64,000 bases of DNA. Source: Bacteroidota bacterium (GTDB taxonomy: Bacteria; Bacteroidota; Bacteroidia; Bacteroidales; Paludibacteraceae). The stretch covers positions 1 through 64,000 of the forward strand of contig JAJYBB010000005.1 in NCBI GenBank assembly GCA_021779195.1. Reading direction: 5' to 3'. Below the pieces are notes generated by a model, which ran no database searches, was not told the DNA's origin, and saw only the letters and a program-made list of their open reading frames with translations. Below are positions 4,662-48,691 of the stretch, in pieces. Position 1 is the first letter of the stretch, and each line of letters begins with the position of its first letter. The translations under genes were made by a program, and so were the position numbers.

Positions 4662-5001
4662 GTATAGGCGTTTAGACCGCCCAATGATTTTTGATATTTA
4701 TTCAGGTTTTGGCTGTAAGCCAATTATAATTTAGCCCAATGGCAACGCCTTGGGTTGTATAAAAAAATACGTTTTGAGCCTGCAAGTGCAATATTATTAT
4801 TATTATTATTATTTTGCCCTTGCAGGGCGCATGTCGATTTTTCATTTTCTTATACCCAAGGCGTTGCCATTGGGCTAAAATATATTGCCACTTCGTGGCG
4901 AATATTGGGATAAGTATGAAGTTATCCCATAAAAATTGGATTCAAATCGTGTTCAAATCAACTATAATAGACATTTATTAGGGCGGTCTAAACGCCTATA
5001 C
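4662..5001. repeat. 340-bp nested palindromic element
   Basis: The outer arms 4662-4682 and 4981-5001 form a perfect 21-base inverted repeat (GTATAGGCGTTTAGACCGCC...). The inner arms 4730-4754 and 4855-4879 form a second perfect inverted repeat of 25 bases (TTTAGCCCAATGGCAACGCC...). Between the inner arms lies an (ATT)n run at about 4792-4813 and a smaller CCTTGCAGGG palindrome. No protein is encoded. This arrangement recalls REP/BIME-type elements moved by IS200-like RAYT transposases, but no RAYT gene is in the window. Confidence 0.8.
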
Positions 5002-44845: not shown

Positions 44846-44878
44846 CAATTTAAGCGGTAATGTCTGAGACCTGCCCAC

Positions 44879-45776
44879 GCAGGTTTAAACCGAATAGGTA
44901 AAGCGGTCTTCGTCATTCCGCCACTTTGTTCACAAAAACATAGCCCCAAGGGTAAAACAAGCAGCCTGAAAAAAATCTCCAGACTTCGCTACACTTCAGC
45001 TTGTTTTTTTTCGGCTGCCCTTGTGGCTACCGCTTCCACACTCACTCCTGCGCTCCGGTAGGTGCTCGTCATGGCGTGTTAGCTTGTTTTGTTCACCACG
45101 TTCTGTCATTCCTCAGTCATGGTTGCACCTGCCCCCTAAAACCCCTTTAAGGTATTCGCTGCGCTCATAGTATTTGTTTGTAGGGGTCAGCCACCATTTA
45201 GAGTTTTGCTCGCCTGCGGTCGCTCGTGCTGTTATGGTTTGTCACATTTTTTGCAGCTCACTTTTTCATGTTGGCTTATTGCCGTGTTCGTTCAGTCTTT
45301 CCGTTCATTTTATTCTCTACACTTCTTCACTCACACCGCAACGCCAACCCCACGCAAGAGCTGTCATTCATTCGCTCATTTCGTTCCATTCCACTCATTT
45401 CACTTTCAGGGTATATGTCTTTTCCCGCCCACAAATCCATGTGGTTGCAGCCGTGTTCCGTTTCACTCCACACCGCTTCACCACCGCACACATACACCCT
45501 TACCGTTCATTCGCTCCAATACACTCCATTCGTTCATTACTTCCAGCCCTTGCCTTTTCCAACGCACCGTTCGGGCAAAAAAATGCGCCAAACCAGCTGC
45601 CGGCAGCACCCGTCCACCGCGCTCCGCGCTTCCTGTGTCCGGGGCACTCGCTCCACTCGCAGCGGCTCGCACACAACGCACAGGCTGAATACTTCGTTCC
45701 GTTTCTCTTCACTCGCATTTCAGCCTTGCTATCCACGCTGGCTCAAGGCTGTTTTTACTATTCGGTTTAAACCTGC
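44879..45776. other. 898-bp non-coding segment bounded by a perfect inverted repeat
   Basis: The ends GCAGGTTTAAACCGAATAG (44879-44897) and its exact reverse complement (45758-45776) pair over 19 bases. The plus strand is very pyrimidine-rich between about 45150 and 45720. All three forward frames stay open there for 160-200 codons, simply because stop codons need purines; the translations look like no protein. A stem GCAGCC-GAAAAAAA / TTTTTTTTCGGCTGC lies at about 44968-45026. Near the right end CAGCCTTG / CAAGGCTG plus TTTTT (45721-45756) looks like a terminator for a plus-strand transcript. It may be a transposon-like unit or a long RNA gene. Confidence 0.55.
45721..45756 (+). terminator. 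Terminator-like hairpin at the end of the pyrimidine-rich segment
   Basis: CAGCCTTG pairs with CAAGGCTG around a 15-base loop, followed by TTTTT. It makes sense only for plus-strand transcription, although no protein gene precedes it. Confidence 0.6.
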
Positions 45777-45923
45777 TTCTCCCACGCCAACCCCCGACCA
45801 CCCACCCCTAAGAGTATTGCAGTTGTAGTTTTTCTGAAATACAAATACAAAATACCGGATTTCGATAGTACGACAAAAAAAATGTTCACAAAGATAACAG
45901 CAATAAAATGAGTCAGTAAAGGT

Positions 45924-45999
45924 CAAGCCCTTCGGGTTTTTGTCACAATCTCCACACCTCCCTTTGGTCGGGTAGTATTCTGACAAAAAACCTTGACAG
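45924..45999. repeat. Long imperfect inverted repeat
   Basis: The left arm, about 45924-45945 (GTCAAG, then GGTTTTTGTCA), pairs with the right arm TGACAAAAAACCTTGAC at about 45980-45997. The left arm also contains the small hairpin AAGCCC-TTC-GGGTTT. It lies in the non-coding stretch before the DUF6943-like gene and could be a replication or transfer origin or a regulatory fold. Confidence 0.55.
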
Positions 46000-46109
46000 C
46001 CTCAACGCTCCGTTTCACTTCGCTTTTTCTTGCAGTAAGAGGTGGTTTACATTTTCTTTTCGTTTTTCGTGTTTTTTCGCGGGGAATGAGCTTTAGCCCG
46101 ATGCAATGA

Positions 46110-46571
46110 ATGTTTAATCACCCTTTATTTGATTTGCTTATGTGTACTTTTTTATTGAAATCTTATAGCCCGAAACAGGAAATTTCAAATCCTCATTTCT
46201 TTATTCTCAACAAAGGAAATAACAGCGGAAAACCGCTTGTTTCTCCCTGTCCGAATTGCTTTGTAATTATCTCAGAAAATCAAGAGCAAGCCGACCAGCT
46301 CCGCACCCTCTGTTATGCTTTGTGGCGGTCTCGTTCGTTTGAACGGCATTTGCATGGTTCAGTCATTCCGTTTATCACCATTCGTTCGTTCCGGAGTGTT
46401 TTGTCATTCCACATTCCAATTATTGAGCAATACGCCGCCGATTTTGCTCAAACTGTCCTGGCTCTCAAATTATTGGAGGAAAGGGAGCAGCAACTTACAA
46501 AAACGCTTCGAGCTGTCAGCGAGTACAAACAAGCATTTGTTCGCCAATTCTTCAAAAATGCAGGGGTGTAA
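46110..46571 (+). CDS. DUF6943-like mobile-element protein
   Basis: 153 residues, soluble. A central segment SNPHFFILNKGNNSGKPL followed by SPCPNCFVI resembles the Bacteroidota mobile-element family DUF6943 (recognition by eye). Helices follow, with FERHLHGSVIPFITI and a C-terminal coiled coil (KLLEEREQQLTKTLRAVSEYKQAF). The first 25 residues may not be translated; internal starts exist. The function is unknown. It is the first protein gene of the right part of the element, 165 bases before DUF6266. Confidence 0.65.
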   Translation: MFNHPLFDLLMCTFLLKSYSPKQEISNPHFFILNKGNNSGKPLVSPCPNCFVIISENQEQADQLRTLCYALWRSRSFERHLHGSVIPFITIRSFRSVLSFHIPIIEQYAADFAQTVLALKLLEEREQQLTKTLRAVSEYKQAFVRQFFKNAGV

Positions 46572-46736: not shown

Positions 46737-47375
46737 ATGGGAAAGATTAATTTAGGTATTCTCGGAAGTTTCTCAGGTAAAGTGGGAAACGTTGTCGGTG
46801 GCAAATGGAAAGGCATTAGCTACATGCGTGCCAAAGCTACTTCGGTAAGCAATCCCCGCACCGACGGACAAATGAGCCAGCGTTCCAAGTTTGCACTTGT
46901 TTTGGCTATCCTGAAACCGATTACCGGATTTATCCGTGTTGGTTACAAGAAGTACACCACCAAGCAAACTGCGTTCAACGCTGCAATGTCTTACATTTTA
47001 GGCAATGCAATCACCGGGGCTTACCCCGATTTCAGCGTTGACATGGCCAAGGTACTTGTTTCTCGTGGTTCACTCACCGGAGCTTTGAACGGTGTTGCAA
47101 CTTCTGCAAATGGTGTCGTTACCCTGAATTGGGCTGACAACTCCGGCAGTGGTAATGCAACCGCAACCGACAAAGCTTTGATCGTTGTGCTGAATCCAAC
47201 CCGGGCGGAATCTGTTTTCGATACTGGCGGAAACCAGCGTGTTGCAACCACCGAAGACATTACCGTTCCTGCTGATTGGGTTGGTGAAAGCGTGGAAGTG
47301 TTCCTGGGCTTCATTACCGAAGATGGTAAAGACGTGGCAAACAGCTCCTATCTGGGTTCTGTTGTAGTGGCCTAA
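46737..47375 (+). CDS. DUF6266 protein, candidate structural protein
   Basis: 212 residues with the conserved opening of DUF6266: GKINLGILGSFSGKVGNVVG, then KGISYMRAKA. A helical middle (KFALVLAILKPITGFIRVGY) leads to a C-terminal beta-rich, Ig-like domain (TLNWADNSGSGN ... SVEVFLGFITEDGKDV). No signal peptide or enzyme motif is present. It has its own terminator, separate from the lysis genes that follow, so it could be made at a different level. Its place directly before holin and endolysin is where phages keep structural genes; a virion role is an inference. Confidence 0.75.
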   Translation: MGKINLGILGSFSGKVGNVVGGKWKGISYMRAKATSVSNPRTDGQMSQRSKFALVLAILKPITGFIRVGYKKYTTKQTAFNAAMSYILGNAITGAYPDFSVDMAKVLVSRGSLTGALNGVATSANGVVTLNWADNSGSGNATATDKALIVVLNPTRAESVFDTGGNQRVATTEDITVPADWVGESVEVFLGFITEDGKDVANSSYLGSVVVA

Positions 47376-47405
47376 GCGTAGGCAACTATCTGTTTTCTTG
47401 CAGAC

Positions 47406-47434
47406 AAATCCCGCCCGAAAGAGCGGGATTTTTT
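47406..47434 (+). terminator. Terminator after the DUF6266 gene
   Basis: AAATCCCGC / GCGGGATTT stem with loop CCGAAAGA and a T run. Almost the same hairpin closes the lysis cassette at 48717-48746. Confidence 0.88.
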
Positions 47435-47463
47435 GAATCTACTAATTTAAAATTCAAACAAAT

Positions 47464-47901
47464 ATGATACGATTAATAATGAATAAGGATTGGGGCAACT
47501 TTAATTCGCTCCTCGCTGTTTTGGCTATCCTTTACACTTGTGTTTTTCTATCCGTACTCATTGACCTGTTCTTTGGGGTAAGGCGTGCAAAACGCCTGAA
47601 TATCGTCCGTACCAGTTTCGGCTACCGCCGCACCATTACCAAACTGACCAGCTACTTTGGTTTAATGATCATGCTTTCCATTGCTGATATTGTGGCAAGC
47701 GTAGTTTTCGATATGCCATACTTTACCGTAATAGGAGCTATCGGGATTGTCCTTGTCGAAGCGAAATCAGTTTTTGAGAACCTGAGGCAGGAAACCAAAA
47801 ACGTGGACGAAATTCAAAAGGTCCTGCTCAAACTCTTTGAAAACAAAGAGGAGATACAAACTCTCATTTCATTTCTAAACTCAAAAAAGCCGGAGGAATA
47901 A
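47464..47901 (+). CDS. Phage holin family protein
   Basis: 145 residues with three or so membrane helices (LLAVLAILYTCVFLSVLIDLFFG-like first helix, then SYFGLMIMLSIADIVASVVF and FTVIGAIGIVLVEAKSVF) and a basic loop RRAKRLNIVRTS between helices 1 and 2. A charged C-terminal coiled coil follows. This matches the toxin-secretion/phage-lysis holin (holin_4) type common in Bacteroidota phages. It would form the inner-membrane lesion that releases or activates the endolysin encoded two bases downstream. The likely start is ATG 47464 or the fifth-codon-region ATG at 47479. Confidence 0.85.
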   Translation: MIRLIMNKDWGNFNSLLAVLAILYTCVFLSVLIDLFFGVRRAKRLNIVRTSFGYRRTITKLTSYFGLMIMLSIADIVASVVFDMPYFTVIGAIGIVLVEAKSVFENLRQETKNVDEIQKVLLKLFENKEEIQTLISFLNSKKPEE

Positions 47902-47903
47902 AT

Positions 47904-48314
47904 ATGAAATCGAGAGGACTTAGGAACAACAATCCTTTGAATATCCGGAAAAACACCGAACAGTTCCAGGGAGAAATCAAAGGCACAGACAAGAGTTTCA
48001 AAACTTTTTCGTCACTGCCTTACGGCTATCGTGCCGGCTTTGTAATCCTTGGGACGTACCTTTCCCAGGGATTAAACACCATTGAAAAGATCATTGCCCA
48101 TTGGGCACCACCAACCGAGAACGATACAGAAAGTTATATCGCCCATGTTGAAAGATGGTCGGGTGTTCCCAAAAATAAGGAACTAACCGCCCGGAATGGC
48201 TCTGAATACATTCTAATCGTTGCGGCCATGAGCTATGTCGAAAACGGACAGAACGCCGACATTTCGGCAGTACAGGCAGGTTTCAAACTACAAACTAAAA
48301 TCAAAATCCAATGA
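47904..48314 (+). CDS. Endolysin-like peptidoglycan hydrolase (P5-type)
   Basis: 136 residues opening with RGLRNNNPLNIRKN, the signature of small lysozyme-like proteins often annotated 'structural protein P5' in Bacteroidota phages. Further conserved parts are YGYRAGFVILGTYLSQG, IIAHWAPPTENDTESYIAHV and the C-terminal helix AMSYVENG. It probably cleaves cell-wall glycan. It has no signal peptide, so it depends on the holin. Its 3' end overlaps the next gene by four bases (ATGA). Confidence 0.85.
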   Translation: MKSRGLRNNNPLNIRKNTEQFQGEIKGTDKSFKTFSSLPYGYRAGFVILGTYLSQGLNTIEKIIAHWAPPTENDTESYIAHVERWSGVPKNKELTARNGSEYILIVAAMSYVENGQNADISAVQAGFKLQTKIKIQ

Positions 48315-48691
48315 AAAAGATACTTCTTTTCGCAGTAATAGCAACGATGTTGCTTTCCTGCAAATCGGTCAAATACATTCCGGTAGAAACTACTAAAATA
48401 GAGTACCGGGACAATTTCGTCAGGGACTCAATTTTCCGTTACGATTCTGTTTTTGTCAAGGACAAAGGAGATACTTTGATCCTGGAACGATACAGGTACC
48501 TGTACAAAAACCGCATTATCAAAGACTCAGTTTTTATCAACGACACAATCCGGGTGCCTTATCCGGTGGAAGTGATCAAACAGGTAAAAGCGCCGCTTAC
48601 AAGCTGGCAAAGTTTCCAAATATGGTGCGGTCGTTTTGCTCTATTTGCTTTGGTGTTAGCCGGCATTTATTTTGTGTGGAAGTTGAAATAA
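48311..48691 (+). CDS. Spanin-like lipoprotein with C-terminal membrane anchor
   Basis: 126 residues. The N-terminal signal ends in a lipobox (TMLLSCKS, Cys17), the middle is a charged rod of Arg/Asp/Tyr-rich repeats (DNFVRDSIFRYDSVFV, NRIIKDSVFINDTIRV), and the C-terminus is a membrane helix (RFALFALVLAGIYFVWKL). An outer-membrane lipid anchor at one end and an inner-membrane helix at the other is the layout of unimolecular spanins, which fuse the two membranes in the last step of phage lysis. With the holin and endolysin it completes a lysis set. Confidence 0.75.
   Translation: MKKILLFAVIATMLLSCKSVKYIPVETTKIEYRDNFVRDSIFRYDSVFVKDKGDTLILERYRYLYKNRIIKDSVFINDTIRVPYPVEVIKQVKAPLTSWQSFQIWCGRFALFALVLAGIYFVWKLK

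Follow-up and report, generated by a model that had tools for sequence, protein, structure and literature searches.

What is an 898-base non-coding unit, closed by inverted repeats, doing between the metal cargo and the holin-like and endolysin-like genes of an integrated element? We analysed this unit (44879-45776) within a stretch of 64,000 nucleotides of Bacteroidota DNA, called the window below. The original prediction offered two answers, a non-autonomous mobile unit or a long RNA transcribed from the plus strand. The evidence given below speaks against both. The unit is conserved, structured and non-coding, and it may belong to a control region that acts as single-stranded DNA (ssDNA).

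Sequence of the inverted-repeat unit

The perfect 19-nt inverted repeats that had been predicted are present: GCAGGTTTAAACCGAATAG at 44879-44897 has its exact complement at 45758-45776, and 860 nt separate the two arms. When the window was dinucleotide-shuffled 20 times, a perfect inverted repeat of this length or longer never arose within 1.5 kb. Outside the element, at 4662-5001, the window holds two further perfect inverted repeats with arms of 19 nt or longer, one nested within the other (arms at 4662/4981 and 4730/4854).

The unit is also pyrimidine-rich, as had been noted (62.7% pyrimidine), and the top pyrimidine content in the 64 kb is found in 898-nt windows at 44901-45001. The statement that all forward frames are open is roughly true: in every plus frame a single run of 182-199 codons stays open, but the frame has 4-6 stops in all. 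These open frames are spurious, because most indels among homologues have lengths not divisible by three and the substitutions follow no protein-like codon pattern. A protein-coding reading was ruled out on these grounds, and the unit is non-coding, as the original prediction held. The hairpin with a T-run at 45721-45756, described there as a terminator, exists in the window but is not conserved; L041 and L091 show GGCTGCTTTACC at this site, without a T-run.

The larger conserved block that contains the unit

An integrated Bacteroidales element carries the unit. Among its products are HTH proteins, a tyrosine integrase, a PrimPol/BT4734-like protein and DUF3987. Its metal/arsenic cargo, with acr3 (44757) as the last gene, is followed by the folded region and then by genes for DUF6943, DUF6266, a holin-like protein, an endolysin-like protein and a lipoprotein. 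Among the genes of the window element we recognised none for a relaxase or for transfer, and the stretches compared near mnmE contained no direct repeats of at least 12 nt as element ends.

Homologues with 73-98% identity occur in the congeners (Paludibacter; 12 of 48 genomes match) and in other families, for example Prolixibacteraceae, while the unit's own genome carries a single copy. Homology starts sharply at CCTGCCCACGCAGG (44870), and everything to the left is exchangeable cargo. To the right, homology continues through the right repeat into a nearly invariant C-rich block, then a variable stretch (45832-45911), and reaches 46004 and beyond. What is conserved and non-coding is a block (44870-46004) that separates exchangeable cargo from the DUF6943-DUF6266-holin-lysin module, and the unit makes up its left part. 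The original prediction overlooked this block, which extends from 44870 to at least 46004, and the two copies of a hairpin motif inside it. The features of the block and module are as follows.

44870-44883 (no strand): small palindrome, CCTGCCCACGCAGG; left limit of homology in L041, L048, L049, L051 and L093; cargo varies up to here.
44879-44897 (no strand): left arm of the long-range inverted repeat, the closing stem of the folded unit; TA/AT compensatory pair in 5 homologues; absent in L261.
44943-45032 (plus): hairpin motif copy 1; core diverged in the window, intact in homologues such as L048; covariance model R1, 47.7 bits, E = 6.6e-10.
45033-45757 (no strand): pyrimidine-rich non-coding part with conserved long-range helices, for example 45236-45252 with 45578-45594; double changes in 11 homologues.
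45721-45756 (plus): terminator-like hairpin and T-run, seen in the sequence, not conserved; no T-run in L041/L091-type units.
45758-45776 (no strand): right arm of the long-range inverted repeat, exact complement of the left arm; compensatory change with the left arm.
45777-45812 (no strand): C-rich block (CCAACCCCCGACCACCCACCCCTAA), nearly invariant; near-invariant columns in alignment A5.
45914-46004 (plus): hairpin motif copy 2 with intact core, ATCTCCACACC..GGGTAGTAT at 45948-45978; R1, 80.7 bits, E = 1e-18.
46110-46571 (plus): DUF6943 gene, the first after the motif; Pfam PF22105.
46737-48691 (plus): downstream module of DUF6266, holin-like, endolysin-like and lipoprotein genes; Pfam PF19781 and PF05105, phrog_873.

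The core pattern of copy 2 was never found in shuffled windows. The minus strand of the C-rich block at 45777-45812 (GGGGTGGGTGGTCGGGGG) contains runs of G and could form a G-quadruplex.

One homologue, L261, lacks the left arm and keeps the remainder of the unit. From the sequences compared, the left edge of the block looks like a site of cargo exchange. Left-end fragments of 30-100 bp border unrelated gene clusters in L042, L044, L046, L047, L055, L085 and L087; the fragment in L042 is split by an insert with inverted ends of its own. Searches of plasmid and phage collections gave no nucleotide similarity to the whole region, and the left-end pattern was absent from viral contigs. The DUF6266 gene (46737-47375; also L234 and L243-L245) often occurs in Bacteroidales in tandem arrays of 2-4 related copies. 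In the literature searched, we found no paper on DUF6266 or DUF6943.

A hairpin motif found across Bacteroidota

The motif consists of an outer stem (CAAGGT..ACCTTG), a side hairpin, an A-rich/T-rich stem and a fixed core, AT[CTCC]AC..loop..GT[AGT]AT. The core stem contains a fixed internal loop of 4x3 nt, CTCC/AGT in plus-strand lettering. Of 393 Bacteroidales genomes, 36 (from 30 genera) contain the core pattern, and the controls are near zero. It also occurs in 68 IMG/VR contigs, and many of these retain the outer stems. The covariance model gave 117 matches in 89 loci and matched 22 of 345 genomes in a phylum-wide sample. Overall, more than a hundred mobile-element loci of Bacteroidota carry the hairpins. 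The motif is also present in Flavobacteriales, in CTnDOT-type elements and in plasmids; a search with the hairpin consensus matched 18 Bacteroidota plasmids and 3 unannotated phage records. The IMG/VR contigs with the motif may be dsDNA phages, although their terminase- or portal-like neighbouring genes matched no such family in PHROGs or Pfam. Neither the window nor 22 further loci had an Rfam match at the gathering score, and a lax threshold returned chance-level matches only.

In some copies palindromic flanks reach beyond the model. In many copies CTACC or CTACT is enriched 20-40 nt downstream of the core, right after the outer stem (18 observed, 4 expected). These pentamers are complementary to GGTAG of the core, which hints at an alternative pairing or a pseudoknot.

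Evidence for folding

Pairing of the motif is proven by covariation. Over 53 diverse copies and 23 pairs, 88.5% of the cells pair, and 189 double changes were counted versus 62 in shuffles (0 of 500 shuffles reached the observed value), with a sharp optimum when the partners were slid against each other. The sequence of the stems varies freely while pairing is kept.

For the whole unit, we folded 11 homologues with G-U pairs forbidden. The two strands have 148 pairs in common, and 1547 of 1580 cells are Watson-Crick. Intersecting ordinary two-strand folds is biased against wobble pairs, and the G-U-forbidden version was relied on instead. The alignment folds far better than its column-shuffled versions (z = -11.5); the RNA fold of the unit has z = -6.1. 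The long-range helices include the inverted repeat itself, with its TA/AT compensatory change, and a 14-bp helix (45236-45252 with 45578-45594) that has four double-change columns and arms more than 300 nt apart.

Which molecule is constrained

A functional RNA tolerates G·U, but not A·C, on its own strand. We counted both kinds of mismatch at pairs chosen without allowing G-U, and used RNase P RNA from 22 Bacteroidales as the control; a tRNA control was small (11 tRNAs), with A·C zero by construction, so RNase P was used. The control gave 86 G·T versus 7 A·C. The unit gave 3 versus 17, and the hairpin family 3 versus 16 (Fisher test about 1e-11 for each against RNase P). Independent copies from Flavobacteriales gave 3 versus 12, even in an alignment trained to allow G-U on the plus strand. 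The p values for the asymmetry are 0.003, 0.004 and 0.035 in the three data sets. G·U makes up 0.2-1.7% of the pairs here, versus 5.4% in RNase P RNA and 7.3% in tRNA.

An A·C on the plus strand is a G·T on the minus strand, and therefore these counts point to the minus strand; the low total of wobble pairs points to DNA. The minus-strand fold is also the more stable one in 44 of 53 hairpins with DNA energies and in 46 of 53 with RNA energies. On these counts the constrained molecule is not a plus-strand RNA and fits single-stranded DNA of the minus strand, with the caveat that strand-biased mutation could contribute to the A·C excess. A wobble-asymmetry test calibrated on RNase P offers a simple way to separate folded motifs under DNA-level constraint from those constrained as RNA.

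Genes downstream of the motif

The motif typically lies 85-210 nt upstream of genes for DUF6943, SSB, ArdA, RadC or similar proteins, with a median of 141 nt from core to ORF start. The next gene is codirectional versus opposite in a ratio of 64:20; this is weak evidence, because the nearest upstream genes show the same bias (64:22). The first downstream ORFs were classified in two samples. The 43 ORFs of the first sample include DUF6943 (10), ArdA (4), DUF6266 (3), RadC, DnaJ and phosphoribosyltransferase (2 each), and SSB, ArdC-N, Mob_Pre and AbiC (1 each). The second sample, independent and mostly of Flavobacteriales type, has 25 ORFs, with DUF6943 (11), SSB (7), ArdA, DUF932 and AbiEii (1 each). 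DUF6943 is the commonest family in the 68 ORFs of both samples (21), which also include SSB (8), ArdA (5), RadC (2) and ArdC-N (1).

In CTnDOT-type elements the motif heads a PcfK-PcfJ-DUF3873 or a RadC-ArdA operon, converging on the tra genes. A Bacteroides ovatus plasmid carries four copies on the same strand, each before a small operon, with DUF2958 and a DNA methylase behind the last copy. About 300 nt separate the motif of pFTRAC01 from mobC-relaxase downstream of it, with no gene annotated between; in L173 the motif is upstream of Mob_Pre, and in a Flavobacterium plasmid upstream of rep. Besides anti-defence genes, defence-like genes lie behind some of the hairpins (L264:17275-17367, L254:6449-6542 and L161), namely an AbiC-like protein, an AAA ATPase resembling an OLD-type nuclease, and ShosT-like phosphoribosyltransferases.

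The AlphaFold model of DUF6943 has a pLDDT of 90. Its best Foldseek matches are weak and are to type I restriction specificity subunits or M/S proteins (E 0.017-0.2), and PADLOC Specificity_I matches 2 of 18 members in alignment A6 (best E 5e-4). As a lead only, these model-based matches raise the possibility that DUF6943 is a half-HsdS decoy, that is, an anti-restriction protein.

The operons headed by the hairpin seem to be without a normal Bacteroidota promoter. In the same loci, 69 of 179 ordinary upstream regions contain TAnnTTTG (23 expected), whereas around the motif it occurs in at most 6 of 95 cases, no more than chance. Neither TAnnTTTG nor TTG-N17-23-TAnnTT is enriched in or near the hairpin, which shows nothing recognisable as a -35/-10-like or a Bacteroidota -33/-7 element.

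A possible single-stranded-DNA control region

We propose that the unit is part of an ssDNA control region, a Bacteroidota counterpart of the Frpo/ssi ssDNA promoters or priming sites. We give this reading a probability of roughly 0.45. Conjugation or mobilisation into a cell, or replication of the rolling-circle type, would leave one strand of the element exposed. The minus strand, which is the template of the downstream genes, would then fold: pairing of the inverted repeats would enclose some 900 nt as one domain, and each motif would form its stem with the fixed 4x3 internal loop. We infer that RNA polymerase or a primase takes this fold for a double-stranded promoter and begins RNA synthesis at it. 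Expression of DUF6943 and the genes that follow (SSB, ArdA and RadC in other loci) would in this way begin before a second strand exists; the RNA started at the fold might also, or instead, prime that strand.

The observations match the logic of Frpo/ssi because a conserved DNA hairpin folds best on the template strand, SSB and anti-restriction genes lie behind it, an element can carry several copies, and an ordinary promoter is missing. We do not claim membership in Frpo as such: the promoter hexamers are absent, and the fit of the orientation differs among plasmids. Taking the relaxase gene to enter last, and with oriT inferred, the orientation fits the expectation for a leading region in p214_V8GG_COL1 and pFTRAC01, but in the B. 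ovatus plasmid it is opposite, relative to the relaxase, to what an ssDNA promoter predicts. The motif operon of p214_V8GG_COL1 is also about 25 kb from the likely oriT (again inferred). Further points against an ssDNA promoter are that the window element has no recognised relaxase or transfer gene, that the hairpin has no -35/-10-like or -33/-7 element, that the motif occurs in contigs that are possibly dsDNA phages, and that strand-biased mutation could account for part of the A·C excess.

A wider version of the proposal is more tentative. Bacteroidota may use, phylum-wide, ssDNA promoters that lack any known promoter sequence and whose shape, with its fixed internal loop, is what is recognised; DUF6943 would be an unrecognised entry or anti-restriction protein, and some of these promoters would come with a folded ssDNA domain of about 900 nt. 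Such a domain would be larger than any signal of this kind known to us. CTnDOT-like elements are major carriers of resistance in this gut phylum, and a signal conserved in elements of Bacteroides, Prevotella and Flavobacterium would show how they evade host defences. It would also mark the entry genes of elements, including families of no assigned role such as DUF6943.

Alternative explanations

Ranked next after an ssDNA promoter, and rather unlikely in our estimate, is a purely replicative or transfer signal. The hairpins would be sites of ssDNA initiation, complementary-strand origins or relaxase-linked sites, not promoters, and their association with certain genes would merely reflect where such sites are tolerated. 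The copies before mobC-relaxase, Mob_Pre and rep fit this, as do the PrimPol-like protein and DUF3987 encoded by the element. The recurrence of SSB, ArdA and DUF6943 directly downstream nevertheless favours gene expression, as do the four copies that each head a separate operon and the lack of an ordinary promoter in the operons downstream. A structured plus-strand RNA, with the hairpins as cis-acting 5' leaders or the unit as a long non-coding RNA of the ROOL/GOLLD/OLE kind that regulates the downstream genes, is unlikely. It would agree with the strong covariation, with the RNA fold of the unit, and with the position of most motifs on the coding strand of the next gene at a median of 141 nt. 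However, G·U is almost absent and outnumbered by A·C; at 3 G·T versus 17 A·C cells in the unit, against 86 versus 7 in RNase P, the long plus-strand RNA of the original prediction is not supported. The minus strand folds better even with RNA energies, and there is neither a promoter signal upstream of the motif nor an Rfam match.

A double-stranded DNA element, acting as an unusual promoter or operator when a host or element protein binds its cruciform or imperfect palindrome, is quite unlikely. Low G·U is what DNA would give, palindromic flanks exceed the model in some copies, and copies in dsDNA phages would be accounted for, if the contigs in question are phages. A duplex protein site needs no asymmetry between G·T and A·C, yet all three data sets show it; the stem sequence is free while pairing is kept, unlike in an operator, and helices covary between arms more than 300 nt apart. 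Very improbable is a MITE-like non-autonomous mobile unit bounded by the 19-nt terminal inverted repeats, the other answer of the original prediction. The repeats are perfect, and left-end fragments of 30-100 bp do occur beside unrelated genes in other contigs; but the unit is not a stand-alone mobile unit, because the left flank alone changes among homologues, and all full copies share the right flank. No target-site duplication, no intact copy outside this context and no second copy in its own genome were found, conservation passes both ends, and L261 keeps the unit without its left repeat. L261 is the single case of a homologue lacking the inverted repeat, one of the results that the original prediction had named as refuting it.

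Comparison with known systems

ROOL, GOLLD and OLE are large structured non-coding RNAs of phages and mobile elements. The unit resembles them in being conserved and non-coding and in forming a domain of about 900 nt that a long-range stem closes; it differs in having no Rfam match and a wobble pattern that is not RNA-like.

HMP2_4078 is a palindromic candidate structured RNA of 109 bp from Bacteroidetes, found near phage integrase domains (PMC8040213). Compared by description only, it shares the phylum, size, palindromic nature and mobile-element context of the Bacteroidota hairpin, and on that comparison it may be an earlier sighting of it.

By context, the nearest known motif is STAXI (RF01728), which is likewise a repeated structured motif near SSB and antirestriction genes. 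STAXI consists of tandem pseudoknots with UUCG loops in Enterobacteriales, and its authors also considered ssDNA (PMC2864571). The Bacteroidota motif, in contrast to these enterobacterial pseudoknots, gives no Rfam match.

The Frpo/ssi ssDNA promoters of conjugative plasmid leading regions reportedly go back to Masai and Arai in 1997, and expression from incoming ssDNA has been worked out mainly for plasmids of the E. coli type. Frpo promoters precede SSB and anti-defence genes, and Frpo/ssi sites also prime DNA synthesis (Samuel et al. 2024, PMC11541004); the same main survey of leading regions does not mention Bacteroid* (PMC11541004). The Bacteroidota motif, a putative counterpart, differs from Frpo/ssi in having no recognisable -35/-10, a short apical stem and the fixed CTCC/AGT internal loop. 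It often accompanies DUF6943, is not always beside oriT, and in the window element comes with a folded domain some 900 nt long. What the two have in common is an imperfect hairpin under selection at the level of ssDNA, placed before SSB, ArdA and other anti-restriction genes, present in several copies per element, and folding best on the template strand with pairing of the DNA type.
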